From Microbacterium ginsengisoli (lineage in GTDB: Bacteria; Actinomycetota; Actinomycetes; Actinomycetales; Microbacteriaceae), in the NCBI RefSeq assembly GCF_000956535.1, contig NZ_JYIY01000073.1:62001-126000 (forward strand): DNA of 64,000 bases, given 5' to 3'. The notes under the pieces are model-generated. The model searched no databases, was not told the origin of the DNA, and was given only the letters and a program-made list of their open reading frames with translations. Position numbers and translations under genes: made by a program. Below, piece after piece: positions 1,983-48,514 of this stretch; the stretch's first letter is position 1; each line of letters opens with the position of its first letter.

Positions 1983-2018
1983 CGAAGGGGGCGGATGCCG
2001 CGGCATCCGCCCCCTTCG
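1983..2018. terminator. bidirectional hairpin terminator between ppa and the M23 peptidase gene
   Basis: A perfect 36-bp inverted repeat with no spacer. Its arms are CGAAGGGGGCGGATGCCG and the reverse complement. It serves two convergent genes. Its centre is the 16-bp palindrome GGATGCCGCGGCATCC that recurs elsewhere in the window. Confidence 0.75.
1993..2008. repeat. GGATGCCGCGGCATCC palindrome, copy 1 (intergenic)
   Basis: Exact 16-bp palindrome inside the ppa terminator. Identical copies lie at 31532 (in recQ) and 46996 (in the YkoD-type gene). Confidence 0.8.
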
Positions 2019-2027
2019 CTGTGTCGA

Positions 2028-3389
2028 CTAGATGTTGATGCCGCGCTGCGCCATGAGGGGCTGCGGGTTCTTCGGCGAGCCGTTGACGTAGAACTCGAAG
2101 TGCAGGTGGCATCCGAACGCGTTGCCGGTCTCGCCGCCGCGCCCGATGACCTGGCCGGCCGAGACCTGCTGGCCGTAGGACACGAGGATGCCGCCGTTCT
2201 GCATGTGCGCGTACCCGGTGCCGATGCCGCCGCCGTGGTCGATCTTGACGTAGTTGCCATAGCCGCCGTTGGGGCCGGCGTAGACGACCGTGCCGGCGCT
2301 GGCCGCGAAGATCGGGAAGCCGCACGTGCCGTTGGCGATGTCGAGACCGTAGTGGAAGCTGCTGGCGCAGTACGACGGACCGCACTGGGCGTAGCGGGGG
2401 CCGTAGGGCGAGGTCATCGGCCCGTTCGCGGGGCGGGCCCACCCGCTCGACGAGGCGCCGCCGCCTCCGCCACCGCCGCCGCCCTGCGCGGCCTCCTGGG
2501 CGGCCTTCGCGGCCGCCGCCGCTGCCGCCGCGGCCGCCGCCTCGGCGGCCTTGCGTGCGGCTTCGACCCCGGCCTGGTAGTCGGCGACGGTCTTGGCGGT
2601 CTGATCCTGCAGCGCCTGCAGCTGCGCCTGGAGGTCCTGCAGGTGGCTCTGCTGGTTCGCGAGGGCGGCCTGCGCCGCCTGGGCGGCGTTCTGCGCCGCG
2701 GTCATCGCGTCATTGGCCTGCTGCTGGAGCTTGTCGCGCTCATCGGCCTGCACCTTGGCCTGGTCACTGAGCGACTGCGCGAGGTTCTGCGCGGTGACCG
2801 CGTTCGTGTAGACGTCGTTGTTGCGCTGCAGCAGGCGGTCCATCGTGCCGAGGCGGGCGAGGAGATCGTTGGCCCCCGCGGCGGATCCGGCGAAGAAGAT
2901 CTGCAGCGACGCGTTGTCGCCACCGGAGCGGTAGAGCTGCGCTGCCAGGCGACCGGCCTGGTTCGCCGCCTCGAGGGCGGCGGCGGACTGCTTGTCGGCC
3001 TGATCCTGGATGTCGGCGGCCTTCTGGCTCGCGTCGAAGAACGCCTGCTGCGCGGTGTAGAAGACCTGCGACGCCTGATCAGCGGCCGCCTGCGTCTGCG
3101 TGACCTGCGTGTTCAGCTGCGAGATGAGGCCGTTGATCTTCGTGATCTCGGACTGCTTCGCGGCCTCGTTGTTCTTTGCCGCCTGCACGTCGGCCCAGCT
3201 GGGGTAGTCGGCCGCGAAGGCGGGAGTCGAGAACCCGGACGCGACCGCACCGACGGCGACGATGCCGAGTGCCCCCGCACCGAAGAGCGCGCGACGGCTC
3301 ACGTCGGGCCACAGCGCGCGCTGCTCACGCGCGGAGGGCGCGCAATCGCACTCGTCGGTGTGGTCCACCTGAGTGGTGTCGTCGGTCAC
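2028..3389 (-). CDS. secreted M23-family peptidoglycan endopeptidase with coiled coil
   Basis: Predicted murein hydrolase of 453 residues. Twin arginines at about residues 32-33 (SRRALFGAG) precede a hydrophobic stretch ending in PAFA, which suggests Tat-type export. A long Ala/Gln-rich coiled coil follows, then an Ala-rich and poly-Gly linker, and a C-terminal LytM/M23 domain. That domain has HYGLDIANG (metal-binding His and Asp), GYAHM and HLHFEFYVNG with the catalytic HxH. The coiled coil plus M23 layout resembles EnvC/NlpD-type and mycobacterial RipA-neighbour proteins. The start is taken as GTG at 3389 because GAAGGGA lies upstream; an in-frame ATG at 3464 is less likely. It is transcribed away from the tRNA cluster. 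Confidence 0.9.
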   Translation of the reverse strand: MTDDTTQVDHTDECDCAPSAREQRALWPDVSRRALFGAGALGIVAVGAVASGFSTPAFAADYPSWADVQAAKNNEAAKQSEITKINGLISQLNTQVTQTQAAADQASQVFYTAQQAFFDASQKAADIQDQADKQSAAALEAANQAGRLAAQLYRSGGDNASLQIFFAGSAAGANDLLARLGTMDRLLQRNNDVYTNAVTAQNLAQSLSDQAKVQADERDKLQQQANDAMTAAQNAAQAAQAALANQQSHLQDLQAQLQALQDQTAKTVADYQAGVEAARKAAEAAAAAAAAAAAKAAQEAAQGGGGGGGGGASSSGWARPANGPMTSPYGPRYAQCGPSYCASSFHYGLDIANGTCGFPIFAASAGTVVYAGPNGGYGNYVKIDHGGGIGTGYAHMQNGGILVSYGQQVSAGQVIGRGGETGNAFGCHLHFEFYVNGSPKNPQPLMAQRGINI

Positions 3390-3563
3390 GAGGCATCCCT
3401 TCGGTGCTCGAGTCACATCTGCATCACTAATAACATGCGTCACCTTCACGAAGGAATCAAGCACAGGTTGAAGGTTGACCGCACGCCTTCGTCATTCTGC
3501 GTTGCGCTGTGGGAGCCGTCGGGAGCCCACGCGGGGCGGTCGGGAATCGCATGGTCGCTCGGT

Positions 3564-3593
3564 TTGGTGCAACGGCCTTCATTTGCGTATGCT
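3564..3593 (+). promoter_or_regulatory. promoter of the tRNA cluster
   Basis: TTGGTG at 3564 and TATGCT at 3588 are separated by 18 bases and sit about 50 bases before tRNA-Glu. This fits a sigma-70-type promoter for the three tRNA genes. The rest of the 3390-3645 gap shows no gene. Confidence 0.5.
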
Positions 3594-3645
3594 TGAGCGT
3601 CGGCAAGCGTGACCGCCGAATCCCTCGGGATGTCGAGTTTCGCCC

Positions 3646-3718
3646 GGCCCCATCGTTTAGCGGCCTAGGACGCCGCCCTTTCACGGCGGTAGCACGGGTT
3701 CGAATCCCGTTGGGGTCA
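3646..3718 (+). tRNA. tRNA-Glu (TTC)
   Basis: The acceptor arm GGCCCCA pairs with TGGGGTC. The anticodon stem CCGCC/GGCGG carries loop CTTTCAC, giving anticodon TTC, and the T loop is GTTCGAATC. No CCA is encoded. First gene of a Glu-Asp-Phe cluster. Confidence 0.97.
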
Positions 3719-3747
3719 CACTCACCGGCACACAACTCAACAAGCAT

Positions 3748-3821
3748 GGCCCTGTAGCGCAGTTGGTTAGCGTGCCGCCCTGTCACGGCGGAGGTCGCGG
3801 GTTCAAGTCCCGTCAGGGTCG
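3748..3821 (+). tRNA. tRNA-Asp (GTC)
   Basis: The acceptor arm GGCCCTG pairs with CAGGGTC. The anticodon loop CTGTCAC gives GTC, and the T loop is GTTCAAGTC. No CCA is encoded. Confidence 0.97.
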
Positions 3822-3886
3822 CTCCGAGCGACGGGCCCTTTCTTAGCAGAGGGCCCTTCGTCTAGGACGCGGCAGATATGCCGCGC

Positions 3887-3959
3887 GGCTCTGTAGCTCA
3901 GTTGGTAGAGCGCACGACTGAAAATCGTGAGGTCACGGGATCGACGCCCGTCGGAGCCA
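3887..3959 (+). tRNA. tRNA-Phe (GAA)
   Basis: The acceptor arm GGCTCTG pairs with CGGAGCC. The anticodon stem CACGA/TCGTG carries loop CTGAAAA, giving GAA. The T arm reads GGGATCGACGCCC, with ATCGACG in the loop in place of the usual TTCGANN start. Last gene of the cluster. Confidence 0.96.
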
Positions 3960-3986
3960 CACGGACCGTCGTTACAACGGTCCCAG

Positions 3987-4026
3987 AAACCCTCGCCTAG
4001 CTTCTACATGGCGGGGGTTTTGCTTT
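3987..4026 (+). terminator. intrinsic terminator of the tRNA cluster
   Basis: AAACCCTCGCC pairs with GGCGGGGGTTT (one G-T pair) around a 12-base loop, followed by the T-rich TTTTGCTTTT. One of the few terminators here with a clear T tract. Confidence 0.85.
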
Positions 4027-4053
4027 TGGCGCGGGCGGCGTGACCGCACGCGC

Positions 4054-4087
4054 AAAGGCCGGCCCCGCGGCATCCGCGAAGCCGGCC
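4054..4087 (-). terminator. terminator downstream of acs
   Basis: Read on the minus strand: GGCCGGC, an inner CGCGG-ATG-CCGCG hairpin, then GCCGGCC and TTT. The loop contains the recurring GGATGCCGCGG word. Confidence 0.6.
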
Positions 4088-4105
4088 CCTGCGCGTCAGG
4101 CCGGA

Positions 4106-6076
<1,971 letters not shown>

Positions 6077-6078
6077 GG

Positions 6079-6681
6079 TCAGCTCGCCTTCGGGGCGCCG
6101 ATCGGGAGGACGGTGCGTCCCCAGGTCGAGTTGATGACGGATGCCGCGGAGCCGTACCAGGCGAGCACGGCGGTCACGAGACCGACGACGCCGCCGATGT
6201 TGGTCGCGGTCGCACTGCCGCTGAACGCGCCGATCGTGAGGAGCACGAACGTGATCAGCAGGGCGATGAACACCAGCAGCACGATGCGGCTCGCCTTGAT
6301 GGCGCCGATGGTCATGTAGAAGGTGAAGATCGTCCACGCCAGGAAGAAGACGGCGAGTCCGTCGGCGCCGGCCGCCTTGGCGAGCGCGTCGTTCGTCAGC
6401 AGGAACCACACGGCCAGCCAGAACGAGCCGTACGAGGTGAACGCGACGGCGCCGAACGTGTTGCCCTTCACGAACTCCCACATGCCGGCGAGCAGCTGGG
6501 CGATGCCGCCGTAGAACAGGGCGAGGGCGAGAGCGCCGGCCCCGGCGTCGGGGATCCACCCCGCGTTGGCGACGCTCAGCACGAACGTCGTGAGGGCGAA
6601 CGCGGCGAGGCCGAGAGCGCCCGGGTCCGCGACACCGGCGACGAACGTCGGGCGCGAGATGATGTCGGTCTGGTTGCTCAC
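6079..6681 (-). CDS. satP: acetate uptake transporter, GPR1/FUN34/YaaH (SatP) family
   Basis: Predicted acetate/succinate permease or channel of the inner membrane, 200 residues with about six hydrophobic helices. The family signature near the N-terminus is VADPGALGLAAFALTTFVLS. FYGGIAQLLAGMWEFVKGNTFGA and the FTSYGSFWL segment follow, all typical of SatP. GTG at 6681 is chosen because AAAGGAGTG lies upstream; an in-frame ATG at 6744 lacks such a site. First gene of the satP-acs operon and divergent from the LuxR-type regulator. Confidence 0.93.
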   Translation of the reverse strand: MSNQTDIISRPTFVAGVADPGALGLAAFALTTFVLSVANAGWIPDAGAGALALALFYGGIAQLLAGMWEFVKGNTFGAVAFTSYGSFWLAVWFLLTNDALAKAAGADGLAVFFLAWTIFTFYMTIGAIKASRIVLLVFIALLITFVLLTIGAFSGSATATNIGGVVGLVTAVLAWYGSAASVINSTWGRTVLPIGAPKAS

Positions 6682-6850
6682 GATGAACACTCCTTTGTGT
6701 TGTGGATAGACCCGCAGGACCGGGGCCACGGGGCATCCGTTCACATCGGCGTGAGCGGATACTCATAGCGAAACCCGGGGTTCGGCCCTGCTAGCTTCAA
6801 CGCTACGAACGCACCGACGCGCTCGACTACCGTCCAAAGGAGGTAGTGAT
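6682..6850. promoter_or_regulatory. divergent control region of satP-acs and the RamA-like regulator
   Basis: Two CGGGGC runs lie in tandem at 6721-6734. Tandem G- or C-runs of this kind are the reported recognition pattern of corynebacterial RamA. An imperfect palindrome CGAAACCC/GGGGTTCG lies at 6769-6784. AAAGGAGG at 6836-6843 is the ribosome site of the regulator. Which of these sites are used is inference. Confidence 0.4.
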
Positions 6851-7699
6851 GTGGAGACGATGACGTCGCCGCTCGCCCCCCGCGATGCCCTGCTCGCGAC
6901 GCTGCGCACCCTGCGCCGCGACACGGGCGCCAGCATCACCTTCGGTGCGTACGCCACCCCCGGCGGCGCCCGTCTCGACGCGTTCGTCGGCGCGCACAGC
7001 CACACCCTCGCGGGAGTGCTCATCGAACCCGCCCACGGGGTCGGCGGCAAGGCCATGGTCGACCGGAGGCCGGTCGCGGCGACCCAGTACGAGCGCTCGA
7101 CGGCGATCACCCACCACTACGACCGCGAGGTCAGCGGCGAGGCGATCGTGTCGCTGCTGGCCGTGCCGGCGATCGTCGGCGACCGGGTGCGGGCCGTGCT
7201 CTACGTCGGCGAGCGCGTCGCCACACAGTTCGGCGGCGACATCGTGCGCCGCACCGTGTCGGCCGCGCAGAACCTCGCGTGGGAGTTCACGGTCGCCGCA
7301 GAGGTGGAGCGCCGGGTGACCGAGCTGCGGCAGGCGGCAGCGCTCTCGGCCGCCGCCGATGCCCCGTCGCGGGAACGCCAGGAGGTGCGGGAGGCGGCCG
7401 CCGAACTGCGAGAGCTCAGCCGCGTCGTGCAGGACCCCGAGCTGCTGGCGCGCATCGACGCGATCGGCCGACTGCTGCTGCCCGCCCCGACCGAGCTCGT
7501 CGCCCCGCGACTCTCGCCCCGCGAGGTCGACATGATCACCCAGCTCGCGCTCGGCCGCCGCAACAGCCAGATCGCCGAGGCCCTCGGCCTCACCGAGGCG
7601 ACGGTGAAGGCCTACGTGTCATCCGCGATGCACAAGCTCGACGCGAGCAGCCGCTTCGAGGCGGTCGCGGCCGCGCGTCGCGCCGGCATCGTCGCGTGA
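6851..7699 (+). CDS. LuxR-family regulator, RamA-like (acetate metabolism)
   Basis: Transcription regulator of 282 residues, the same length as corynebacterial RamA. The N-terminal two thirds look like a GAF-type sensor. A short Ala/Glu/Arg-rich helix follows, then a C-terminal LuxR helix-turn-helix: LSPREVDMITQLALGRRNSQ, then IAEALGLTEATVKAYVSSAM. It is divergent from satP-acs, which is the basis for suggesting acetate control. RamA in Corynebacterium activates acetate and other carbon genes. The GTG start is preceded by a strong AAAGGAGG. The precise ligand is not known from sequence. Confidence 0.8.
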   Translation: METMTSPLAPRDALLATLRTLRRDTGASITFGAYATPGGARLDAFVGAHSHTLAGVLIEPAHGVGGKAMVDRRPVAATQYERSTAITHHYDREVSGEAIVSLLAVPAIVGDRVRAVLYVGERVATQFGGDIVRRTVSAAQNLAWEFTVAAEVERRVTELRQAAALSAAADAPSRERQEVREAAAELRELSRVVQDPELLARIDAIGRLLLPAPTELVAPRLSPREVDMITQLALGRRNSQIAEALGLTEATVKAYVSSAMHKLDASSRFEAVAAARRAGIVA

Positions 7700-7713
7700 G
7701 GATGCCGCGGGCA

Positions 7714-7719
7714 TAGCCT
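7714..7719 (+). promoter_or_regulatory. -10 element of the leaderless short-chain dehydrogenase transcript
   Basis: TAGCCT followed by exactly six bases and the ATG at 7726. Confidence 0.5.
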
Positions 7720-7725
7720 GGCGGT

Positions 7726-8487
7726 ATGAGCACCCTCACCGGAACCGTCGCCCTCGTCACCGGAGCCTCCAGCGGAATCGGGGAGGCCACCGCCCGCACC
7801 CTCGCCGCCGACGGCGCCGCCGTGGCCCTCGTCGCCCGCCGCGCCGACCGTCTCGCGTCGCTCGCGAAAGAGATCGCCGCGGCCGGGGGCACGGCCGTCG
7901 CGATCGAGGCCGACATCACCGACCGCGATCAGGCCCGCGCCGCGGTGGCCCGCACGGTCGCCGAGCTCGGACGACTCGACATCCTCGTGAACAACGCCGG
8001 CGTGATGCTGCTGGGGCCGGTCGAGCACGCGCCGATCGACGAGTGGGACCGCATGATCGACCTCAACCTCACCGCACTGCTGTCGGTGACCGAGGCGGCC
8101 CTCCCCCACCTGCTCGCGGCCGCCGAGAGCGAACCGCGCCGGGTCGCCGACCTCGTGAACATCTCGTCGACAGCGGGCCGCCAGGTCAAGCGCGGCTCCG
8201 GCGTCTACAACCTCACCAAGCACGGCGTGGGCGCCTTCAGCGAGTCGTTCCGGCAGGAGTTCAGCCGCCGCCACCTGCGGGTCGGCGTCGTCGAGCCGGG
8301 TGCCGTCGCGACCGAGCTGCGCGACCACCTGCGTCCCGAGATCCGCGAGGTGCAGCAGCAGCGCCTGTCGGCGATGCAGCCGCTGCAGGCGCAGGATGTC
8401 GCGGACGCGATCTCGTACATCGTGACGCGTCCGCGCCACCAGACGATCAACGAGTTGCTGCTGCGCCCGACCGAGCAGGACGACTGA
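7726..8487 (+). CDS. short-chain dehydrogenase/reductase
   Basis: Classical SDR of 253 residues with a Rossmann fold. It has the nucleotide-binding TGASSGIG near residue 13, LVARRADRL after strand 2 (suggesting NADPH preference), NNAG, the catalytic Ser in ISSTAG and YNLTK as the catalytic Tyr/Lys pair. Closest in feel to the YdfG/clavaldehyde dehydrogenase type. Substrate cannot be read from sequence. It has its own leaderless promoter and ends 2 bp before the convergent response regulator stop, with no terminator hairpin seen. Confidence 0.92.
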   Translation: MSTLTGTVALVTGASSGIGEATARTLAADGAAVALVARRADRLASLAKEIAAAGGTAVAIEADITDRDQARAAVARTVAELGRLDILVNNAGVMLLGPVEHAPIDEWDRMIDLNLTALLSVTEAALPHLLAAAESEPRRVADLVNISSTAGRQVKRGSGVYNLTKHGVGAFSESFRQEFSRRHLRVGVVEPGAVATELRDHLRPEIREVQQQRLSAMQPLQAQDVADAISYIVTRPRHQTINELLLRPTEQDD

Positions 8488-8489
8488 GC

Positions 8490-9197
8490 TCAGCGCACGA
8501 GTCGGGCCGCCGGGGTCGTGTACACGTGCTCGGGCCGCCCGGTGCTGCCGTAGCGGAGGGTGAGCACGATGTGGCCCGACTGCTCGAGTTGCGAGAGGTA
8601 GCGCTGGGCCGTCGCGCGTGAGATGCCCGCCTCGGCGGCGACCTGCGCGGCGGATGCCCCGTCGACGCCGCTGTGCGCGATGCGGTCGAACACGAGCTTC
8701 ACGGTCGGAGCCATCGAGGGCACCCGCGGCCTGACGGCCGGCTCGGGCGGTCGCAGCGCCCCGAACAGCCGATCGATGTCGTCCTGCGTCGACTCCTCGG
8801 GAAGCGCCGCGATCTCCCCCAGCGTGCGCTGGAAGGCGATGAGTCGCTCGACGAGCGCTGCGAACCCGAACGGCTTGCTGATGTAGTGCACCGCCCCCAG
8901 TCGCAGAGCTGTGCGGATCGACTCGACGTCCTTCGCCGCCGACACGACGATCACCGACGGCGCGTGAGCCTCGGCGGCGAGGTCGCGCACCACGTCGAGG
9001 CCGTCGCCGTCAGGCAGGTAGATGTCCATCAGCACGAGATGCGGACGCTTCTCGTCGATCACGCGCCGCGCCTCGGCGGCGCTGTGGGCCATGCCGACCA
9101 CGCGGAACCCGGGGACGCGATCGACGAACCCCGCGTGCACCGTCGCGACGCGGTAGTCGTCGTCGACGACCACGACCTCGATCACCGCCTCGCTCAT
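8490..9197 (-). CDS. CitT/DcuR-type response regulator
   Basis: Response regulator of 235 residues. The receiver has acidic pocket VVVVDDDYRV, phosphoacceptor Asp in LVLMDIYLPDGDG, Ser in VVSAAKD and Lys in ISKPF. The C-terminal helix-turn-helix (GASAAQVAAEAGISRATAQR) is followed by a winged segment ending STGRPEHVYTTP, as in the CitB/DcuR family. The ATG overlaps the kinase stop by four bases, so the pair is translationally coupled. Probable targets are the divergent ABC importer genes at 10979 onward (inferred from position). Confidence 0.9.
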   Translation of the reverse strand: MSEAVIEVVVVDDDYRVATVHAGFVDRVPGFRVVGMAHSAAEARRVIDEKRPHLVLMDIYLPDGDGLDVVRDLAAEAHAPSVIVVSAAKDVESIRTALRLGAVHYISKPFGFAALVERLIAFQRTLGEIAALPEESTQDDIDRLFGALRPPEPAVRPRVPSMAPTVKLVFDRIAHSGVDGASAAQVAAEAGISRATAQRYLSQLEQSGHIVLTLRYGSTGRPEHVYTTPAARLVR

Positions 9198-15889: not shown

Positions 15890-15895
15890 GACATC

Positions 15896-20015: not shown

Positions 20016-20044
20016 GGATGCCGCGGCACCGAGTCGCGGCATCC
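20016..20044 (+). terminator. hairpin terminator after the glutaredoxin gene
   Basis: GGATGCCGCG and CGCGGCATCC form a perfect 10-bp stem around nine bases, immediately after the stop. It is built from the recurrent GGATGCC word and has no T tract. Confidence 0.6.
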
Positions 20045-29695: not shown

Positions 29696-31684
29696 TCAGC
29701 CGCCGTGCGCGGCGACGACCGCGAGCACGGCGTCGCCGTAGGCCTCGCGCTTCTTCGCCCCGATGCCCGTGATGCCGTCGAGCTCGTCGGCGGCGGCCGG
29801 CCGGTGCTCGGCGAGGGCACGCAGGGTCGCGTCGCCGAACACGACGTACGCGGGCACCCCCTGCTCGCGCGCGGTCTGGGCACGCCACTCCCTCAGCGCC
29901 TCGAACAGCGGCCGATCGGATGCGTCGAGGGCGTCGGATGCCGCGGCCTTCCGCACCCGCGTCGACCCGCCCGCGCGGCCGAGCACATCCCGCCGCAGCG
30001 GCACGGGAGTCTCGCCGCGCAGCACACCGCCGGCCGCCTCGCCGAGCCCGAGCGTACCGTACTCGCCCTGGGCGATCAGCACCTCGCGGGCGAGCAGCTG
30101 CCGTACGACGCTGCGCCAGTCCTGGTCGGAGAGATCGCTGCCGATGCCGAACGTCGCGAGCTCGTCGTGCCGCAGCTGGGTGATGCGCGCGGTGCGGGCG
30201 CCGCGCAGGATGTCGATCAGCTGCCCGGCGCCGTACGCCTGCCCGCGCTCGCGCTGCAGCCGCACGATGGTCGACAGCAGCTTCTGTGCGGGCACGAGGC
30301 CGTCGAACGTGTCGGGCGGGGTGAGGCAGGTGTCGCAGTTTCCGCACGGCGCCGAGGTCTCGCCGAAGTAGCCGAGCAGGTTCTGGCGGCGGCATCCGAC
30401 CGTCTCGCACAGGGCCAGCATGGCGTCGAGGTGCTGCTGCAGGCGACGTCGATGTGCCAGGTCGCCCTCGGACTGCTCGATCAGCCGCCGCTGCTGCACG
30501 ACGTCGGCGAGCCCGTAGGCCATCCAGGCGACGGATGCCTCGCCGTCACGGCCCGCGCGACCGGTCTCCTGGTAGTAGCCCTCGACCGATTTGGGCAGGT
30601 CGACGTGGGCGACGAACCGCACGTCGGGCTTGTCGATTCCCATGCCGAAAGCGATCGTCGCGACCATCACGACGCCCTCGTCGCGCAGGAACCGGGACTG
30701 GTTCGCCGCCCGCACCGAGACGTCGAGACCCGCGTGATAGGGGAGCGCATCGAGACCCTGACCGCGCAGGTACTCGGCGATCTGCTCGACGCTCTTTCGA
30801 CTGAGCGCGTAGACGATGCCGGCCGAGCCCTCGGGCTGCGAGCGGATGAAGCCGAGCAGCTGACGACGCGCGTCGGTCTTCGGCTCGATGCGGTACTGGA
30901 TGTTCGGCCGGTCGAAGCTGGCCACGAAGTGACGCGCGTCGTCGAGACGCAGGCGACGCCCGATCTCGGCGTGCGTCTCGCGGGTCGCGGTGGCCGTGAG
31001 CGCCATGCGCGGCACTCCGGGGAAGTCGTCGACGAGGTCGCCGAGCACCAGGTAGTCGGGACGGAAGTCGTGACCCCACTGCGAGACGCAGTGGGCCTCG
31101 TCGATCGCGATCACGCTCAGCGAGCCGCGCCGCAGGAGCGCGCGCGTGTCGGGCACGTTCAGCCGCTCGGGCGCGACGTAGAGCAGGTCGAGCTCGCCCG
31201 CGAGGTACTCGCGCTCGACACGGGCACGCTCGGGACCGCTGAGGGTGGAGTTGAGGTACTCGGCTCGCACGCCGTTGGCACGCAGCGCCTCGACCTGGTC
31301 GTGCATGAGGGCGATGAGCGGGCTCACGACGAGCCCCGTGCCCGGACGCACGAGCGCCGGAACCTGGTAGGTCACGCTCTTCCCGCCGCCGGTCGGCATG
31401 AGCACGATCGCGTCGCCGCCCGCGACGACATGGGCGACGATGTCGGCCTGGTCGCCGCGGAACGCGCCGTAGCCGTAGACCTCGTGCAGCACCGTGAGCG
31501 GGTCGGCGCCGTCGAAGCTGCGCCGGGGCGCGGATGCCGCGGCATCCGTCATCTCGCCGACGGGTGCCGATGCCGGCGCATCGAGCACGTCGGGCGGCGG
31601 CGCCCAGTCCTCCGGCGGCGGCGCCCAGTCATCGAGCGGCTCGAGCCCGTCGTACTCGTCGAAGGCGGGGGCGGGCGTGCTCAC
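29696..31684 (-). CDS. recQ: ATP-dependent DNA helicase RecQ
   Basis: 3'-5' DNA helicase of 662 residues. An acidic, Pro-rich N-terminal extension of about 60 residues precedes the helicase core. Motifs are YGAFRGDQADIV (motif 0), MPTGGGKS (Walker A), AIDEAHCVSQWGHDFRPDY (motif II and aromatic loop), ALTATAT, and QETGRAGRDG (VI). A Zn-binding cluster CETVGCRRQNLLGYFGE then APCGNCDTC follows, then winged helix and a C-terminal HRDC domain. GTG start six bases from TACCCT, thus probably leaderless. It carries one exact copy of the 16-bp GGATGCC palindrome near its 5' end. Confidence 0.96.
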   Translation of the reverse strand: MSTPAPAFDEYDGLEPLDDWAPPPEDWAPPPDVLDAPASAPVGEMTDAAASAPRRSFDGADPLTVLHEVYGYGAFRGDQADIVAHVVAGGDAIVLMPTGGGKSVTYQVPALVRPGTGLVVSPLIALMHDQVEALRANGVRAEYLNSTLSGPERARVEREYLAGELDLLYVAPERLNVPDTRALLRRGSLSVIAIDEAHCVSQWGHDFRPDYLVLGDLVDDFPGVPRMALTATATRETHAEIGRRLRLDDARHFVASFDRPNIQYRIEPKTDARRQLLGFIRSQPEGSAGIVYALSRKSVEQIAEYLRGQGLDALPYHAGLDVSVRAANQSRFLRDEGVVMVATIAFGMGIDKPDVRFVAHVDLPKSVEGYYQETGRAGRDGEASVAWMAYGLADVVQQRRLIEQSEGDLAHRRRLQQHLDAMLALCETVGCRRQNLLGYFGETSAPCGNCDTCLTPPDTFDGLVPAQKLLSTIVRLQRERGQAYGAGQLIDILRGARTARITQLRHDELATFGIGSDLSDQDWRSVVRQLLAREVLIAQGEYGTLGLGEAAGGVLRGETPVPLRRDVLGRAGGSTRVRKAAASDALDASDRPLFEALREWRAQTAREQGVPAYVVFGDATLRALAEHRPAAADELDGITGIGAKKREAYGDAVLAVVAAHGG
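31532..31547. repeat. GGATGCCGCGGCATCC palindrome, copy 2 (inside recQ)
   Basis: Exact copy coding for the residues DAAAS in the RecQ N-terminal extension. Confidence 0.8.
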
Positions 31685-37068: not shown

Positions 37069-37082
37069 TTGTCGCGAGAGCA

Positions 37083-41361: not shown

Positions 41362-42338
41362 CCGACGACGAGACGGATGTCGCGGCATCCGTCCGACGCG
41401 TCGGACCCCGCGCGCTGGTGCTCGGCTCGCGCGATGTTCCGCTCGGCGGTGTGCGCGGCATGACCGTCACCCGAGCGCTGCCGCAGCGGGATCTGCCGAT
41501 GGTCGGCGCGTGGTGCTTCCTCGACCGATTCGGCCCGCAGACGACCACGATGCGCGTCGAACCCCATCCGCACATCGGGCTGCAGACCGTGACGTGGCCG
41601 TTCGAGGGCCGCGTGCGGCACCGCGACTCGGTCTCGAGCGACGTGGTCATCACGCGCGGACAGCTCAACCTCATGACCGCGGGCGCCGGCGTCGCGCATT
41701 CGGAGTACTCGGTGGGCGACGGCCCGATCCCGCTCGACGCACTCCAGCTGTGGGTGGCGCTTCCCGAGGCGCGGCGGCACGGCGAGGCCGCGTTCGAACG
41801 TCACGACCGACTACCCGAAGTGACGCTCGCGGCGACCGTGGGGGAGCCCGCCGTCGGCTTGGTCGTGATGGGGTCCTTCGCCGGAGTGACCTCGCCGGCC
41901 ACCGCCTACAGCCCGCTCGTGGGCGCCGAGGTGCATCTTGCGCCGGGCTCGCGGGTCGCGTTGCCGGTGGATGCCGCGTGGGAGCACGCTGTTCTCGCCG
42001 TCGACGGCGATCTCGCCGTGCAGACCGACACGACGCCGGCGACCCCCGCGTCGCTCGGGGTGGGCGACCTGATCTACCTCGGCACCGACCGGGACGAGAT
42101 CGAGGTGAGCACCGACGGCGGCGCGACGCTGTTCCTGCTCGGTGGCGAGCCGTTCGAGGACGACATCGTGATGTGGTGGAACTTCGTCGCGCGCACGCAC
42201 GAGGAGATCGTCGCCGCCCGGGACTCCTGGGAGGCGGGGGCCGAGCGCTTCGGCCGCGTCGTCGACCACGGCGATGAGCGGATCCCGGCCCCGCCGCTGC
42301 CGGGTGTTCGGCTCACCACCCGGCGCCGCCGGGTCTGA
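41358..42338 (+). CDS. pirin family protein
   Basis: Bicupin of 326 residues. The N-terminal cupin has metal ligands in EPHPHIGLQTVTW and AGAGVAHSEYS (His, His, His, Glu). Pirins include quercetin 2,3-dioxygenase activity and iron-dependent transcription cofactors. The C-terminal part (EPFEDDIVMWWNFVARTHEE) is the pirin C domain. Translationally coupled to the GNAT gene. Confidence 0.93.
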   Translation: MTDDETDVAASVRRVGPRALVLGSRDVPLGGVRGMTVTRALPQRDLPMVGAWCFLDRFGPQTTTMRVEPHPHIGLQTVTWPFEGRVRHRDSVSSDVVITRGQLNLMTAGAGVAHSEYSVGDGPIPLDALQLWVALPEARRHGEAAFERHDRLPEVTLAATVGEPAVGLVVMGSFAGVTSPATAYSPLVGAEVHLAPGSRVALPVDAAWEHAVLAVDGDLAVQTDTTPATPASLGVGDLIYLGTDRDEIEVSTDGGATLFLLGGEPFEDDIVMWWNFVARTHEEIVAARDSWEAGAERFGRVVDHGDERIPAPPLPGVRLTTRRRRV

Positions 42339-42345
42339 CGAGCGC

Positions 42346-42379
42346 CGAGGGCGCCCCGGCCGGAGCCGAGACGCCCTCG
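42346..42379. terminator. hairpin between pirin and subtilase genes
   Basis: CGAGGGCG and CGCCCTCG arms around an 18-base loop, between two convergent genes. No T tract. Confidence 0.45.
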
Positions 42380-42395
42380 TCCACCTGGTCGGGTG

Positions 42396-45300
42396 TCAGA
42401 ACACCAGGAACCCGGATGCCCCGAACGACCCGTCGAGCACCGCACTGCCGCCGTATTGGGCGACGATCACGTGCACACCGCGGGACTGCTTCGGCAGGGT
42501 GATCGACGCCTTCCCGTCGGCGAGGTCGGCCGTGTAGGTCCGGCCGTCGACCCACACCGTGACGGCGCCGGTCGCCGCGGGACCGTGGGACGGCTTCACC
42601 GCGAGGTTCACCACGAAGGTGGTCGACGTGCGCCCGAGGTACGGGTTCACGGTGACGCTCAGCGACGAGGACGCCTTCACGACGACGCCGGCGCTGTCCG
42701 CCGTGCCGGCGTTGGGCGAGGAGGCGGCAGTCGCGGTCACCCTGACCGACAGCGTCGTGCCCGCGTCGGCCTTGGTGACCTTGTACGTCGTGCCGGTCGC
42801 GCCGTCGATCGGTGAGCCGTCGCGCAGCCACTGATAGGCGAGCGTCACGTCCGCGGGATTCCAGGTGCCGCCCGTCGCGGTGAGAATGCTGCCCACCTTC
42901 GGCGTGCCCGTGACGGTCGGCGGGGCGGTGGCGACCGGAGCGGCCGCACCGCTGTCGACCGTGAGCACCGTCGTCGCCGCCGAATCGCCGTAGCGCACGA
43001 TCCCGAAGTAGCGGGTGGACGCGTCGAGCCCCGACCAGCTGAGCCGGTAGGTCGCGGGCTGCCCGCTCGTCGTCGGCAGCGGGTCCGGCGAAGCGGTCAG
43101 CGAGCCGACACCCGCGCCGTCGCCGACGACCGCAGCCGTCGCGTCCCATGTGAACGGCGACGTGAAGGCATAGCGGTTGACCTGCACGAGGTAGGTGCCC
43201 GCCGTCGGCGCGATGAGCGCGACGGACTCGTCGGCCGACGACGTCGCCGATGACCAGTTCTCGTAATAACGCCAGTCGGTCGGCGACACCACCCGGTAGA
43301 CCGTCAGGTCGAGGTCGGACCCGGTGTCATCCGAGGAGTCGACGTCGAACCGGGCATACGTCGACCCCTGCGGGACATCCACCACCATGTAGGCGTTGTA
43401 CTGGCCGTCCTCCTCCGAGAAGGTGTCCTGGTCACCGGAGTGACCGGGCACGGCGGGCAGGTCGGGGTCGGTCAGCAGAGTCGCCGGGGCGAGGCCGGAG
43501 ACGCCGAGGTCGAGGTCGCCGGTCACCGCCGGAGTCACCGTCACGTCGGCGGTGCCCGAGATTCCTGTGCCGGACACCGATGCCGGGGCATCGACCGAGA
43601 CCGGGTACACCGCGATCGGCGAGCGGGCGGCGTGCGTGCCACCCGTCCACGTCAGGAACCCGTGGGTCCACTTCTCGACGGGGGCGTCCGTGCGGGTCAC
43701 CGTGATCTTCACGTCGGCCTTCTCGCCCGCCTTCAGGCTCACCGTCGACGGCGCGACCGTGACGTCGAAGCCGGGGAGGTCGACGTTCGCGGTGAACGTG
43801 GCGTCCTCGGTGGCCGTGATCGTGCGGGTCACCGTCTGCGAGCCGGCCAGCGAGCCGATCCCGATGGAGGCGAGGTTGAGGTCGCTCGCGTCGATCGGCG
43901 AGACGCCGAAGTCGTGCAGCCCGAGGCCCTGCAGGTAGGCCGCCCAGTCCGCCGGTCCGTTCAGGTACAGCAGGCTCGGCGAGAAGTACGCGGTCGGGTC
44001 GACGTGGCCGGCGCCCTGCGTGAACGGATCGGTCACCGCGGCGCCCGCGGCATCCTTCGTGTCGTAGGCGGTCGTCATCATGGCCGACTTGATCTCGGCG
44101 GGCGTCGCGTTCGGTCGCTCACCGAGGTAGAGCGCCGCGAGCCCCGCGATGTGGGGCGCCGCCATCGACGTGCCCGACAGGATGCCGAACGTGGGGTCGG
44201 CGCCCGGCGCGTTGTTCGTGGCCGCGAGGATCGCGACGCCGGGCGCCGAGATGTCGGGCTTGATGACGTCGCTGCCGTCGGCGAGCATCGGGCCACGGCT
44301 CGAGAATCCGGCAACCTGCGGGGTGGGCGTCTCGACGCCGGTCACGTTCTCGCCGATCAGGGTCGCCGTCGCGTCCGCCGTGCCGCGCACGTAGTCGAGC
44401 AGAGCCGCGCGATCGGTGTCGGGGAGGTGCACGGTCGGCACGCTGTGGAAGTCGTTGTCGAGCGAGCCCGGCGTGACGTTCACGAGGATCATGCCGATGC
44501 CGCCGGCCTCCTTGACCGCCTGCGACTTCTCGACGCGGGCGTTCGAACCGCGGTCGCAGACGACGATCTTGCCGGCGACCTTCGCCGGGTCGAGCGAGCC
44601 GAGGTAGCACAGCGGTGCGTTGGCGTTACCGGCGAGCGCCACGTCGCCGGAGTAGACGACGGGGCCGGTGACCCGCTCACCGAACGGAACACTCACCGAG
44701 GCGCCGGCCTTCTGGAAGCCGTTCGGCAGTTCGACGGTGCCCTCCCAGGTCGGGATGGTCGAGGCGGCGACGGTCGTGTACCAGGGCGATGCGTGGTCGG
44801 CGGTCGAGGCATCCGGTCCCGAATTGCCGGCGCTGACCGAGACGAACACGCCCGCGGCGGCCGCGTTGTAGAACGAGATGTCATCGGGCTGCAGAACGGA
44901 TGTCGCCGACCCGCCGCCGATCGAGTAGTTGATGACGTCGACGCCGTCGGCCGTCGCCTGATCGATCGCGCCGAGCAGGTCGCTCAGGGCGCAGATGTCG
45001 TCGGTCGTGACGAGCGGATCGGGGCCGTCGTAGCAGGCCTTGTAGGCCGCGACCTTGGCGGCCGGGGCGACACCCGAGATCGCGCCGAAGTCGACGCCCT
45101 CCACGGTTGCGTCGACCCCGTTGTTGCCCGCAGCGGTCGAGGCCGTGTGGGAGCCGTGACCGGCGCCGTCGCGCGGCGACAGGTAGTCGTAGGCGAACGA
45201 GAACCCGGTGGCGGCGGCGCCCTCGCTGAAGTACTGCGCGCCGACGAGCTTGGTCGAGTACTGCGCGGCACTCCAGGCGTCCTTGCCGGCTCCCGGCTTG

Positions 45301-46013
45301 TCGACGACCGTGCTGCGGAACTCTCCGCCGTCGGACTTCTTGTAGACCACCTGCGTGACGGCGGCGCCGTCGGCGTCGGTGCCGGCGGCGAGGTAGGGCT
45401 GCGTGTCACTCGGGGTCGTCGACAGCGGGTCGCCCGCGAACGACGGGTTCTCGGGCGAGATGCCGGTGTCGACGACGCCGACGACGATGCCCGCGCCGGC
45501 CTTGTCGATGCCGCCGACGCCCTCCCACACTCCGCCCGCGCCCTCGAGACCGAGGAACTGGGTCGACGGGACGGCATCGGGATGCCGCACTTCGTCGGCG
45601 TAGACGCCGAGCACCCCCTTCGTGCCCTTGAGCTTCGACGCCTGCGCGCCGCTGAGGTTCGCGCTGAAGCCGTTGAGGGTGATCTGGTAGGTCGTGTCGG
45701 GTGTCACTCCGGCGCTGGAGGCGACATCCTTCTGCCGGTTCTGGAGGAACCGCGAGTACTGCTTCGCCTGCGGTGAGGCCGCGTCGAGCCGTTCGCCCTC
45801 CTTCGCCTTGGTGGGGGCGAGGCCGGGCTCGCCCCCTTCGTAGGTGGCGACGGGCTTCTCGTCGAGCAGCACGATGTAGCGGCCGCCGGGCAGATCGAGA
45901 GGGGTGGGCGCGGCGGGGCCGGGCTCGGCCGCGGTGCTCGCCGCGGCCGAGCCGCTGACGATCAGTGCGGCCAGGGTGACGGCCGCCGCAGCTTTCAGGC
46001 GGAGGTGTGCCAT
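42396..46013 (-). CDS. secreted subtilisin-like serine protease (S8) with PA and Ig-like domains
   Basis: Exported protease of 1205 residues. A Sec signal peptide ends near ASTAAE. An I9 inhibitor-like prodomain (RYIVLLDEKPVATYEGG onward) is followed by the S8 domain with Asp182 (VGVVDTGIS), His286 (GAGHGSHTAS), Asn397 (SAGNSGP) and Ser616 (LSGTSMAAPHIAG). A PA domain (about residues 440-550, ending before VAGFSSRGPM) is inserted before the Ser. Then come a fibronectin-like domain, a PPC-type region (VPQGSTYARFDVDSSDDTGS) and two Ig-like C-terminal domains. No sortase motif is seen. Likely degrades extracellular protein. Confidence 0.94.
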   Translation of the reverse strand: MAHLRLKAAAAVTLAALIVSGSAAASTAAEPGPAAPTPLDLPGGRYIVLLDEKPVATYEGGEPGLAPTKAKEGERLDAASPQAKQYSRFLQNRQKDVASSAGVTPDTTYQITLNGFSANLSGAQASKLKGTKGVLGVYADEVRHPDAVPSTQFLGLEGAGGVWEGVGGIDKAGAGIVVGVVDTGISPENPSFAGDPLSTTPSDTQPYLAAGTDADGAAVTQVVYKKSDGGEFRSTVVDKPGAGKDAWSAAQYSTKLVGAQYFSEGAAATGFSFAYDYLSPRDGAGHGSHTASTAAGNNGVDATVEGVDFGAISGVAPAAKVAAYKACYDGPDPLVTTDDICALSDLLGAIDQATADGVDVINYSIGGGSATSVLQPDDISFYNAAAAGVFVSVSAGNSGPDASTADHASPWYTTVAASTIPTWEGTVELPNGFQKAGASVSVPFGERVTGPVVYSGDVALAGNANAPLCYLGSLDPAKVAGKIVVCDRGSNARVEKSQAVKEAGGIGMILVNVTPGSLDNDFHSVPTVHLPDTDRAALLDYVRGTADATATLIGENVTGVETPTPQVAGFSSRGPMLADGSDVIKPDISAPGVAILAATNNAPGADPTFGILSGTSMAAPHIAGLAALYLGERPNATPAEIKSAMMTTAYDTKDAAGAAVTDPFTQGAGHVDPTAYFSPSLLYLNGPADWAAYLQGLGLHDFGVSPIDASDLNLASIGIGSLAGSQTVTRTITATEDATFTANVDLPGFDVTVAPSTVSLKAGEKADVKITVTRTDAPVEKWTHGFLTWTGGTHAARSPIAVYPVSVDAPASVSGTGISGTADVTVTPAVTGDLDLGVSGLAPATLLTDPDLPAVPGHSGDQDTFSEEDGQYNAYMVVDVPQGSTYARFDVDSSDDTGSDLDLTVYRVVSPTDWRYYENWSSATSSADESVALIAPTAGTYLVQVNRYAFTSPFTWDATAAVVGDGAGVGSLTASPDPLPTTSGQPATYRLSWSGLDASTRYFGIVRYGDSAATTVLTVDSGAAAPVATAPPTVTGTPKVGSILTATGGTWNPADVTLAYQWLRDGSPIDGATGTTYKVTKADAGTTLSVRVTATAASSPNAGTADSAGVVVKASSSLSVTVNPYLGRTSTTFVVNLAVKPSHGPAATGAVTVWVDGRTYTADLADGKASITLPKQSRGVHVIVAQYGGSAVLDGSFGASGFLVF

Positions 46014-46125
46014 GTACTGCGCTCCATTCGTGGGGGGATGTCGGAACACGTGCCACGGCCCGGAGGCCGCGTGGGCCCGAACGTACCTCACAGCGAATTC
46101 TCAACGAACACATATCCACGGTTCA

Positions 46126-46139
46126 TGAGAGAACTCTCA
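46126..46139. promoter_or_regulatory. inverted repeat ahead of the ykoE-type gene
   Basis: TGAGAG-AA-CTCTCA overlaps the expected -35 position of the downstream leaderless promoter (-10 at 46154), so it could be an operator. The subtilase promoter is on the other side. Confidence 0.4.
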
Positions 46140-46153
46140 CGAGAACGCGTCGC

Positions 46154-46159
46154 TACGCT
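46154..46159 (+). promoter_or_regulatory. -10 element of leaderless ykoE-type transcript
   Basis: TACGCT followed by six bases and the GTG at 46166. The same hexamer and spacing occur before the glutaredoxin and aldose epimerase genes. Confidence 0.55.
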
Positions 46160-46165
46160 GAGCGG

Positions 46166-46714
46166 GTGGCCGCCCGACCATCCGCCCTCTCCACCCGTGT
46201 CCTGCTGATCTGCGCCGCGATCGGCGTCGCCACCGGGCTCCTCGGGGGCATCGCCGGATGGATCACCCCGATCGTCATCGCGACCGCACCGATGCTCTAC
46301 GGCCTGGTGCTCGGCGTGCACGTGCTGCCCGGCATCATCGCGCAGGAGGTCGTGCGGCTGCCCTGGGTGGCGCTGCTCGCGCACGTGCTCGCGGCGCTCG
46401 TCGCCAGCGCCACCAGCCCGCAGTGGGCGGGTCGCTACATCGGCACCGCCCTGCTCATCGGCGGCATCCAGGAGGGCGTCGCCGCCCTCACCCGGTACCG
46501 GTCGTGGGCTCCATGGCGCTTCTTCGTGTCCGCGGTCATCGTCGGTGCGATCATCGCCGTCGTCGTCGCGCTCATCGTCGACCTCGGGAGCTTCGCGCCG
46601 TGGGTTCAGGCGGCGTACCTCACGATCAGCGTGCTCGGCCCCGTCGCGTGGACGGCCGTCGGTCTCGCCGTCGGCGCCCGGCTGCGCAGCGCGGGAGTCG
46701 CCGCCCGTCGCTGA
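46166..46714 (+). CDS. ykoE: ECF transporter S component, YkoE-like (thiamine precursor uptake)
   Basis: Membrane protein of 182 residues with about five to six helices (ATGLLGGIAGWITPIVIATA, then LVLGVHVLPGIIAQEVVRLP). The pattern and the following double ATPase and EcfT genes match the YkoEDC system, in which YkoE binds hydroxymethylpyrimidine or thiamine. The specificity is family-based inference. No TPP riboswitch is visible and the mRNA seems leaderless, so control must be by another route. Confidence 0.82.
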   Translation: MAARPSALSTRVLLICAAIGVATGLLGGIAGWITPIVIATAPMLYGLVLGVHVLPGIIAQEVVRLPWVALLAHVLAALVASATSPQWAGRYIGTALLIGGIQEGVAALTRYRSWAPWRFFVSAVIVGAIIAVVVALIVDLGSFAPWVQAAYLTISVLGPVAWTAVGLAVGARLRSAGVAARR

Positions 46715-46739
46715 CAGGATCCTCCCGCGGGCAGCCGGG

Positions 46740-46745
46740 TAGGTT
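46740..46745 (+). promoter_or_regulatory. possible internal -10 element before the ykoD-type gene
   Basis: TAGGTT five bases before the ATG at 46751, in the 36-bp gap after the S component gene. Confidence 0.35.
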
Positions 46746-46750
46746 AGGTG

Positions 46751-48514
46751 ATGCTCACTTCCGTCGGTCGAGGTCTCGTGTCCCCTGCTCCCGTCATCCA
46801 CGCGAACGGCGTCGCCGTGCGCCACATCGACGCCGACACGCCGGTGCCCGCGGGCGCGAGCTTGAGCGCTCACCCTGGCGAGGTGGTGCTGCTGCTCGGG
46901 CCGAGCGGGTCGGGAAAGTCGACGTTCGCGCTCACCCTCAACGGACTCATCCCGCACCACCTCGACGCCGAGGTGACGGGGGACGTCGTGATCGGGGATG
47001 CCGCGGCATCCGCGTCGACCGTCGCCGAGCTGTCGTCGCGGGTCGCCCTGGTCTTCCAGGACCCGGATGCGCAGATCGTGACCGCCCGCGTGCGCGACGA
47101 GGTCGCCTTCGGCCCCGAGAACCTGCGCGTCCCGCTCGCCGAGATCGCGACGCGCGTCGAGGCGGCCCTGCGGCGACTCGACCTGTGGGAGCGCCGTGAC
47201 GACGACCCCGACATCCTCTCCGGAGGCGGTCGGCAGCGGCTCGCGATCGCCGCGGCCCTCGCAATGGGCACCCCCGCGATCGTGCTCGACGAGCCGACCG
47301 CGAACCTCGATCCGGCCGGCGCCGCCGAGGTGTTTGCCGCCCTGCGCGACCTGGCGTCGGCCGGCGATCACGCGATCGTCGTGATCGAGCACGATCTCGA
47401 CGAGCTGGTCGAGGTGGCCCACCGCGTGGTCGTGCTCGATGCCACCGGTCGCACGGTCGCCGACGGCTCGGTCGACGACGTGCTGCGCGCCCGCGCCGCC
47501 GAGCTCGATGCCCTCGGTGTCTGGCTTCCCGCGGTCACCCTGGCGGCCCTGCGGCTGCAGCGCGCCGGGGTTCCGATCGAGCGGATGCCGCTGACCGCCG
47601 CCGAGCTGCGCGCCGCCGTCGCGGCGGCCCCGCCGATCGATGCGACGGCCGACGCACCGTCGTCGTCTGCGGCGCGCACGCCGGCCGACGCCTCCAGGAC
47701 CTCTCCCGCCGCGAACGCCGTCGAAGTGTCGGGACTCACGCTGCGCCACGGGCGCGACGAGGTGCTGCACGACGTCTCCCTCACGATCGCCGCGGGCGAG
47801 TTCGTCGCGATCGTCGGCCCCAACGGCGCCGGCAAGACGACGCTCGCGCAGGCGATCGCGGGCGTGCGACGCACGCCGCGCGGCACCGTCCACGTGCGGG
47901 GCGCGGACGTCGCGCGCCGACGCACCACCCGGCGCATCGGTTTCGTGTTCCAGAACCCCGAGCATCAGTTCGTGGCACCGACGGTGCGGGAGGAACTCGC
48001 GTACAGCCTGCGCGGGCGCTCGGCCGCCGAGGTCGCCGAGCGGGTCGACGCCATGCTCGAGCGGTTCGATCTGACGGCGCACGCGACGCGGCATCCGTTT
48101 CTGCTGTCGGGGGGCCAGAAGCGGCGCCTGTCCGTCGCGACCGCGCTCATCGGGGGCGCCGACGTGCTGGTGCTCGACGAGCCGACCTACGGGCAGGATC
48201 GCGCCCGCGCCGACGAGCTGCTGCGCCTGCTGGGCGACCTGCACGCGCAGGGCACGACGGTCGTCGTGGTGACGCACGACATGCAGGTGGTCGCCGAGCA
48301 CGCCGAGCGGGTGCTCGTGATCGAGCGCGGCCGGGTGATCGCGGATGCCTCCCCCGCCGTGCTGTTCGCCGACGAACCGCTCGTGCGGCGTGCGCGGCTA
48401 CGGGTGCCGCCGTTGCGGGTCGCGTTCGCCGATCTGCCTGGCCAGCCGGCGCTGTCGGGTGTGATGCGGCTCGCCGACCTCGACGCCGTGCGGGGAACGA
48501 CGGTGGCCGGATGA
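46751..48514 (+). CDS. ykoD: ECF transporter double ATPase, YkoD-like
   Basis: Two fused ABC ATPases in 587 residues. First half: Walker A GPSGSGKST, VFQDPDAQIVTARVRDEVAFG, an unusual signature LSGGGRQRLAIA, and Walker B IVLDEPTANLD. Second half: GPNGAGKTT, VFQNPEHQFVAPTVREELAY, LSGGQKRRLSVA, VLVLDEPTYGQD and VTHDMQVV. An Ala-rich linker joins them. It powers the YkoE S component with YkoC. GTG at 46748 is an alternative start. One exact copy of the 16-bp GGATGCC palindrome lies in the first half. Confidence 0.9.
   Translation: MLTSVGRGLVSPAPVIHANGVAVRHIDADTPVPAGASLSAHPGEVVLLLGPSGSGKSTFALTLNGLIPHHLDAEVTGDVVIGDAAASASTVAELSSRVALVFQDPDAQIVTARVRDEVAFGPENLRVPLAEIATRVEAALRRLDLWERRDDDPDILSGGGRQRLAIAAALAMGTPAIVLDEPTANLDPAGAAEVFAALRDLASAGDHAIVVIEHDLDELVEVAHRVVVLDATGRTVADGSVDDVLRARAAELDALGVWLPAVTLAALRLQRAGVPIERMPLTAAELRAAVAAAPPIDATADAPSSSAARTPADASRTSPAANAVEVSGLTLRHGRDEVLHDVSLTIAAGEFVAIVGPNGAGKTTLAQAIAGVRRTPRGTVHVRGADVARRRTTRRIGFVFQNPEHQFVAPTVREELAYSLRGRSAAEVAERVDAMLERFDLTAHATRHPFLLSGGQKRRLSVATALIGGADVLVLDEPTYGQDRARADELLRLLGDLHAQGTTVVVVTHDMQVVAEHAERVLVIERGRVIADASPAVLFADEPLVRRARLRVPPLRVAFADLPGQPALSGVMRLADLDAVRGTTVAG
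46996..47011. repeat. GGATGCCGCGGCATCC palindrome, copy 3 (inside the ykoD-type gene)
   Basis: Exact copy, again encoding DAAAS. A one-mismatch copy GGATGTCGCGGCATCC lies at 41375-41390 in the pirin gene. Confidence 0.8.

Follow-up and report, generated by a model that had tools for sequence, protein, structure and literature searches.

The window considered here is a stretch of 64,000 nucleotides from Microbacterium ginsengisoli (contig NZ_JYIY01000073.1, positions 62,001 to 126,000), in which a short DNA word, GGATGCC (GGCATCC on the other strand), recurs in 101 copies between positions 851 and 63211, 51 on the plus strand and 50 on the minus strand. At three sites the word forms part of a perfect 16-bp palindrome, GGATGCCGCGGCATCC. 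The first (1993..2008) is at the top of the ppa terminator, a terminator-like hairpin downstream of ppa (1983..2018, plus strand) that has a 16-bp stem, the palindrome at its centre, and an RNA fold of -36.6 kcal/mol (z -6.6). The second (31532..31547) lies within recQ, a minus-strand gene, and encodes the pentapeptide DAAAS in the N-terminal region. The third (46996..47011) lies within an ABC-transporter (ykoD-type) gene, where DAAAS constitutes residues 84-88 in a variable stretch. A one-mismatch copy, GGATGTCGCGGCATCC, is found in a pirin gene (41375..41390, plus strand). Four other hairpins are present: a GGATGCC...GGCATCC inverted pair that makes a long hairpin in a gap (20016..20044, plus strand; z -6.0), a minus-strand hairpin with GGATGCC at its tip (4049..4095; z -7.7), a terminator-like hairpin whose apical part contains GGCATCC (49352..49387, plus strand; z -4.6), and GGGGATGCG....CGCATCCCC (53114..53135, plus strand; z -3.1). 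A preliminary description of the window had listed exact palindromes at 1993, 31532 and 46996, the mismatched copy at 41375, and hairpins at 4054, 20016, 49352 and 53114. All of these are borne out, with fold z values of -3.1 to -7.7 for the four hairpins, and Pfam agrees with the genes named (pyrophosphatase, RecQ, pirin, and ABC transporter). Homology also points to Microbacterium: the closest homolog of ppa that bears a name is from M. gallinarum, at 89%, and Microbacterium names are frequent among the homologs of the ABC transporter.

The copies in the window far exceed expectation. An order-2 Markov model predicts 52 occurrences of GGATGC/GCATCC and 15 of GGATGCC/GGCATCC, compared with 144 and 101 found, and codon shuffling predicts 21.8 of the latter in the window genes, which contain 83. 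The first 20 kb has 26 GGATGC and 24 GCATCC, more than the minimum of 37 previously counted by eye. Throughout the genome (3.05 Mb in 80 contigs, with a listed contamination of 6.31%), there are 2007 forward and 2118 reverse copies of GGATGCC, for a total of 4,125, or one per 0.74 kb; the corresponding numbers for the reversed control are 175 and 171. The 16-mer, which had been considered far beyond chance, is indeed so: it is present 112 times genome-wide versus 1.4 predicted from independent half-sites, and its reversed control is absent. However, these 112 palindromes account for just 224 of the 4,125 GGATGCC copies. The iterated palindrome reported earlier is thus real, but it is a small subset of a non-palindromic 7-mer.

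More detailed counts for M. ginsengisoli come from a 464-kb sample of the genome. In this sample, GGATGCC is the top over-represented 7-mer by order-2 Markov, order-3 Markov, and codon-shuffling backgrounds alike. Within genes, synonymous shuffling predicts 161.1 copies, while 552 are found (z 38.7), and the extended form GGATGCCGC / GCGGCATCC occurs 293 times versus 35.7 by codon shuffle. The excess is all the more striking because words containing GGA or TCC are otherwise strongly avoided in genes (CCTGGA, for example, is found 173 times versus 613). A coding artefact, in which a preference for Asp-Ala or some other codon pair yields the word, might have been suspected, as a G-ending codon followed by GAT GCC is common. 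Nevertheless, synonymous shuffling rules it out, several frames, both orientations, and the gaps are also enriched, and the general avoidance of GGA/TCC words argues in the same direction; we give this explanation next to no chance. The earlier suggestion that the pressure acts on DNA rather than on codons therefore holds, because the excess (552 versus 161) survives the synonymous shuffle, and a codon-preserving background, the check then proposed, fails to explain the counts.

The word leaves a clear imprint on codons and proteins. It had been proposed to force rare codons, chiefly in Asp-Ala. Rare-codon frames do carry the largest excess, but it is strongest for Ala-Ser (xxG GCA TCC, 176 versus 6.5) rather than Asp-Ala (xxG GAT GCC, 185 versus 40). 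When Ala precedes TCC, GCA makes up 176 of the 234 Ala codons that follow a G, as against 27 of the other 166. Each of the 15 palindromes located in genes of the 464-kb sample is read in the same frame, giving DAAAS, a pentapeptide found 19 times in the sample proteins versus 1.3 expected from composition; 15 of the 19 are the palindrome. GGATGCC is thus an example of a DNA word that alters proteins. This 14-fold over-representation of a pentapeptide could also arise from a mobile palindromic element inserted in genes, but that is very improbable. The flanks differ between copies, and the ABC-transporter alignment has no gap at the palindrome in the 49 printed rows of 120 homologs, indicating that at this locus the word arose by in-place substitution, amino-acid changes included. 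Insertion is thereby ruled out for that single aligned locus, with the 14 other in-gene copies lying outside the alignment.

Silent sites within the word are also conserved. Where the partner gene retains Asp-Ala, GAT is kept at 663 of 911 word sites versus 354 of 1090 other GAT-Ala sites, and GCA is kept at 573 of 792 word sites versus 149 of 331 controls. These numbers derive from 21 genomic stretches, 320 genes, and 2,328 directed reciprocal-best pairs, with two other-dialect genomes kept in; they carry no p-value, because the pairs lack independence. An acyl-CoA oxidase gene was compared across 19 species, and the columns in which any of these has the word contain 49 cells that match exactly, 17 with one mismatch, and 51 with two (19 of 28 sequences were used, the nine with a stop in the BLAST segment being dropped). 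Together, these analyses place the excess of GGATGCC at the level of DNA: it covers both strands, genes as well as gaps, is one of exact rather than approximate copies, and is conserved at silent sites.

The word is spaced nearly at random (mean 703 bp, coefficient of variation 0.94), and in M. ginsengisoli it is denser in gaps (2.8 per kb) than in genes (1.3 per kb), reaching 5.8 per kb in convergent gaps versus 2.6 in tandem and 2.2 in divergent ones. The local word is richer in gaps than in genes in 9 of 12 genomes. Termination, one of the roles suggested at the outset, is a partial explanation. A perfect stem of at least 9 is present in 33 of the 220 downstream gaps that measure 35 nt or longer, and 14 of these 33 carry the core GGATGC/GCATCC, but 15 of the 25 perfect palindromes in the 464-kb sample are within genes. 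The word likewise occurs in the ppa terminator of two relatives, L006 (M. gallinarum) and L021, where the loops are different; in several other relatives, the ppa terminator stem is without it. Outside the subject of the word, positions 59899-60544 of the window, in the region of a minus-strand DEAD-box helicase gene, contain 27-bp units in a tandem array.

Pairs of GGATGCC and GGCATCC no more than 40 bp apart in the 464-kb sample are mostly inward-facing (39, versus 3 outward and 7 direct), so inverted pairs are in excess only in the inward orientation. Twenty-five of the 39 are at spacing 2, and in all 25 the spacer is GC. At that spacing the palindrome is all-or-none: after GGATGCC there are 25 exact sites, which outnumber the 6 one-mismatch sites, and 40 two-mismatch sites. 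The sample has 85 perfect 16-bp palindromes in all, and 25 of them are GGATGCCGCGGCATCC. Among 13 genomes chosen by hand, the excess of palindromes over the number that half-sites predict is 80-fold in M. ginsengisoli, 13-25-fold in six relatives, and 2-7-fold in four; in G009 (2 versus 3.3) and G007 (1 versus 2.1) the ratio is less than 1, though half-sites are many. The palindrome excess accompanies the extension GGATGCCGC in M. ginsengisoli and in genome G198.

Enrichment in close relatives, another check proposed earlier, is found in most of the genus sample. Of 34 relatives in the genus, 31 have the 16-mer, and of 23 genomes from other families, none does. GGATGCCG occurs in 199 of 199 family genomes sampled, with counts that in some greatly exceed those of the reversed control and in others (G108 and G177) fall short of them. 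In 149 Microbacterium genomes, the density of GGATGCC runs from about 0.18 to 2.24 per kb, the highest value, one per 0.45 kb, belonging to G319. In several of the low-density genomes sampled, another word takes its place. By codon shuffle, CGGATCC is in excess in G220 (63 versus 12.6), G276 (94 versus 8.9), and G366 (88 versus 12.0), and CGGAACC in G336 (45 versus 7.6). In all four, GGATGCC is at baseline (0.81-1.04), and in G276 (13 versus 13.1) the replacement is complete. Additional variants are GGATGCG in G354 (44 versus 12.1) and G255 (44 versus 14.0), GGATGGC in G032 (50 versus 15.6), and CCGGATG in G360 (46 versus 13.2) and G026 (36 versus 12.7). These dialect words have CGGA or GGAT in common.

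Eight words were scored against a threshold of z 5 and a ratio of 2.2, and 30 of the 35 Microbacterium samples reached it for one of them: 16 for GGATGCC, 4 for CGGATGC (which overlaps GGATGCC), 3 for GGATGCG (including G355, which has GGATGCC too), 3 for CGGATCC, 2 for CCGGATG, and 1 each for CGGAACC and GGATGGC. No word passed in the other five (G002, G308, G313, G316, and G367), and some of the samples without a pass are near the threshold. In other genera, where the samples are mostly 20 kb, 8 of 23 pass and 15 pass for no word. The dialect samples comprise 12-64 kb per genome from a non-random set of genomes, with candidate words derived from the same samples; those of G061, G107, G121 and G220:C1 were too short and were left out, and the genes of G108 were called with a second trainer. 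The preliminary description missed that a word found across the family, and varying by dialect, underlies the 16-mer, which is an extended form of it. In G002 (L143-L144), ACATTGCCG/ACCGGCAAT words are over-represented, possibly as a dispersed repeat. The relative G001 (L106-L125) has a second set of dispersed words: ACAACCGTG (29 versus 1.9), ACGGTTGTA (17 versus 0.7) and TGGCTACAA (12 versus 0.3).

We conclude firmly that GGATGCC is a DNA word that is under selection or drive, is spread over the whole chromosome, and forms dialects. Candidates judged by title in the open-access literature turned up no account of it in Microbacterium. Iterated words that mark chromosomes are known from few groups (the DNA uptake sequence (DUS), the uptake signal sequence (USS), and the highly iterated palindrome HIP1); here such a word extends across a large Gram-positive family, with several dialects within one genus.

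The distribution of the word along the chromosome bears on several possible functions. Strand or replichore bias, which had been put forward for testing, is absent from G001: 239 leading and 236 lagging copies are found in 400 kb, made up of 20 samples, the island sample among them, from a 3.52-Mb contig whose origin was located by parS. In M. ginsengisoli, three parS-like palindromes, TGTTTCACGTGAAAC(A), at G000:C76:34091-34861 probably mark the origin region. Chi, the FtsK orienting polar sequences (KOPS), and the architecture imparting sequences (AIMS) are short exact chromosomal words that are polar. As a chromosome-specific 7-8-mer, GGATGCC resembles an FtsK/KOPS-type guidance word, but its strand neutrality over the 20 samples rules out a polar word of the KOPS or AIMS kind, and this idea is hardly credible. 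The same neutrality argues against a Chi-like signal for an enzyme that resects double-strand breaks. Such a signal would be a short exact word that, as here, abounds in the chromosome and shows no clear excess in phages, and a palindrome would work in both directions. We know of no Chi for AdnAB. None of 44 genomes has RecC (PF04257), for which E. coli scored as a positive control, and this rules out a RecBCD Chi; for AdnAB, named as the actinobacterial enzyme in an excerpt of PMC6452273, no search was made. Overall, a Chi-like role is distinctly unlikely.

A binding site for a nucleoid-associated or chromosome-organising protein is also unlikely, though it has more in its favour. The word is chromosome-specific and on both strands, its dyad form is preferred in some genomes, and 20-kb samples from the origin half of G001 average 29.3 words versus 20.3 in the terminus half (p 0.007 for 9 versus 10 samples, the island sample being excluded). 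This trend, however, may reflect accessory genes. Moreover, the strongly enriched G009 and G007 lack the dyad excess, and such a protein gives no clear reason for terminators or for dialect switches within a genus.

Phages, plasmids and a genomic island, compared with chromosomes, show no clear excess of the word. Relative to codon shuffle, GGATGCC is present at 1.04-1.31 times in six Microbacterium phages, with small single-phage counts of 11-21 copies, at 1.13 and 1.48 times in two plasmid stretches, and at 1.46 times in a metal-resistance island of G001 similar to regions of this kind on plasmids, where the count is very small (4 versus 2.7). By the identical analysis, four chromosome stretches, which serve as the comparison in place of the phage or plasmid hosts' own densities, give 2.8-4.1 times. 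Queries for Microbacterium phages and plasmids with DEAD-box and ABC-transporter sequences were unproductive. Six viral contigs picked for holding the 16-mer contain 3, 5, 8, 5, 6, and 2 words versus 2.0, 1.5, 0.5, 2.0, 3.4, and 0.6 expected. One 20-kb stretch of G001 (L106, G001:C5:1-20000), with genes for metal transport and cytochrome biogenesis, resembles plasmids of M. sediminis and M. proteolyticum and is word-poor, suggesting that word depletion may flag acquired DNA. In practice, the word may help to recognise mobile DNA in genomes of this kind. Among 20 loci (counted without G354 and G255), genes common to 13-20 loci have the word at 5.06 times shuffle, and genes common to none at 3.07.

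The preliminary description likened the situation to HIP1 of cyanobacteria, and this resemblance is supported. By a HIP1-like mechanism, a methyltransferase together with methyl-directed repair or another reader would create and keep the words inside the cell. HIP1 and the alternate HIPs are described as comparably dense, as replaced by another word in some species, and as accompanied by methyltransferases that match them (PMC4390886). PF01555 is found in 47 of 48 genomes, mostly as one conserved solitary enzyme, and the M. ginsengisoli copy is a solitary beta-class DNA methyltransferase at L217:2927-3784 (G000:C57:23926-24783). This orphan enzyme has a match in 144 of 149 Microbacterium genomes, strong (E below 1e-100) in 140, and is 59-86% identical among 18 copies from five genera. 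It is distantly related to M.RsrI and CcrM, and its best NCBIfam model is PRK11524, with a score below the cut-off. We take PRK11524 to be YhdJ, with ATGCAT as its presumed target, for which the literature shows just co-occurring terms. Genus g73, which is without the word, has weaker PF01555 matches only, and the single copy compared (G177) is unrelated to the others.

In the same search of 149 genomes, however, the orphan enzyme has no match in G278, G319, G360, G364, or G259, and only a weak one in G026, G265, G327 and G339. Four of these, G278, G319, G364 (no match) and G339 (weak), are 99-100% complete and carry the word at 0.99, 2.24, 1.21, and 1.18 per kb, respectively; codon shuffling, run among the four for G319 alone, gives 63 versus 14.1. 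The enzyme is thus rejected as a necessary maker, and methylation, an earlier suggestion, is weakened as far as this conserved methyltransferase is concerned. C5 methyltransferases are patchy (24 of 48 genomes, including 8 of 17 low-word and 11 of 21 high-word ones). In addition, HIP sites are palindromic and the core GGATGCC is not, and plasmid and phage DNA is without clear marking. A HIP-like origin matches the word nearly as well as an uptake signal does, but the methyltransferase link is lacking for the enzymes tested, and we regard it as somewhat unlikely.

Because its density, strand neutrality, terminator pairs, dialects, and low mobile-DNA content match descriptions of DUS, we tentatively favour GGATGCC as a self-recognition signal of the DUS type, with a predicted reader in the competence machinery. 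An uptake signal is our best guess for such a self-mark, although it has HIP1-like features too. On this proposal, a sequence-specific protein of the competence machinery would read GGATGCC, and conspecific DNA with the word would be preferentially taken up or recombined. As a consequence, alleles that complete the word would spread by drive, even at an amino-acid cost. Mobile DNA entering by other routes would stay unmarked. In the 16-bp palindrome, two copies of GGATGCCGC, the extended local form, would overlap so that it can be read both ways, and gap copies would be recruited as terminator stems, like DUS pairs. Excerpts of earlier work report dialects, inverted terminator pairs, and permissive-site placement for Neisseriaceae DUS (PMC3630211), atypical DUS content in mobile elements (PMC7371117), and natural competence via Flp/tad pili in the actinobacterium Micrococcus luteus (PMC6370729). 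It is possible, though we hold it with more reserve, that the Microbacteriaceae run sequence-specific DNA exchange, the first uptake-signal system in Actinobacteria, in which a CGGAT-type species dialect marks the chromosome, foreign DNA stays unmarked, and dialect switches within the genus are recombination barriers between species.

Several observations weigh against an uptake signal. To our knowledge, sequence-specific DNA uptake has been found in no Gram-positive. One-mismatch copies of GGATGCC in the 464-kb sample are mostly in no excess. All nine mobile-DNA ratios are slightly above 1, with the six phages pooled giving 89 in-gene copies versus 74.7 by shuffle, and L178, which covers 2.6 kb of a 23.7-kb viral contig (GC 0.56) and is among those picked for holding the 16-mer, has 8 words versus 0.5 expected. 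The core-gene trend is non-monotonic (3.07, 3.78, 2.90, 5.06), and in G001, G220 and G276 the gaps are poorer in the local word than the genes. Finally, ComEC is present in 48 of 48 genomes, word-poor ones included, and so does not discriminate. The PF00437 motor ATPase family is present in 44 of 44, its 13 strongest matches coming from 7 word-bearing and 6 word-less genomes, and none of ComEC, PF00437, C5 methyltransferases, PF01555, and RecC separates word-bearing from word-less genomes. The dialect series could reveal the reader by matching changes in proteins to changes in dialect. If the word is an uptake signal, it would extend sequence-selective transformation to Actinobacteria; if it is not, GGATGCC would help explain HIP1.

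Comparison with known systems places the word among several families of iterated DNA. Like Chi, KOPS and AIMS, it is a short exact chromosomal word, but it has no strand bias in G001 and no RecC to go with it. As with the Rickettsia palindromic elements, a DNA word leaves an imprint on proteins, although here the palindrome is 16 bp and, at the single aligned locus, arose by in-place substitution. Density, placement within genes, and replacement by another word in some species are shared with HIP1 and the alternate HIPs of cyanobacteria (PMC4390886); unlike HIP, the core word is non-palindromic, and four near-complete genomes rich in the word lack a strong match to the conserved orphan methyltransferase. 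The DUS of Neisseriaceae likewise number in the thousands, lie within as well as between genes, form inverted pairs in terminators, and have dialects in related species that keep common core letters, and some members of the family are without the word (PMC3630211); mobile elements are atypical there too (PMC7371117). Unlike DUS, GGATGCC is found in an actinobacterium, is 7-9 bp long, and is known here from sequence alone, no ComP-like reader was found here, and word-less genomes have ComEC too. What DUS and GGATGCC have in common is a chromosomal excess of about one per kb on both strands, dialects, inverted pairs in terminators, and the competence channel ComEC.

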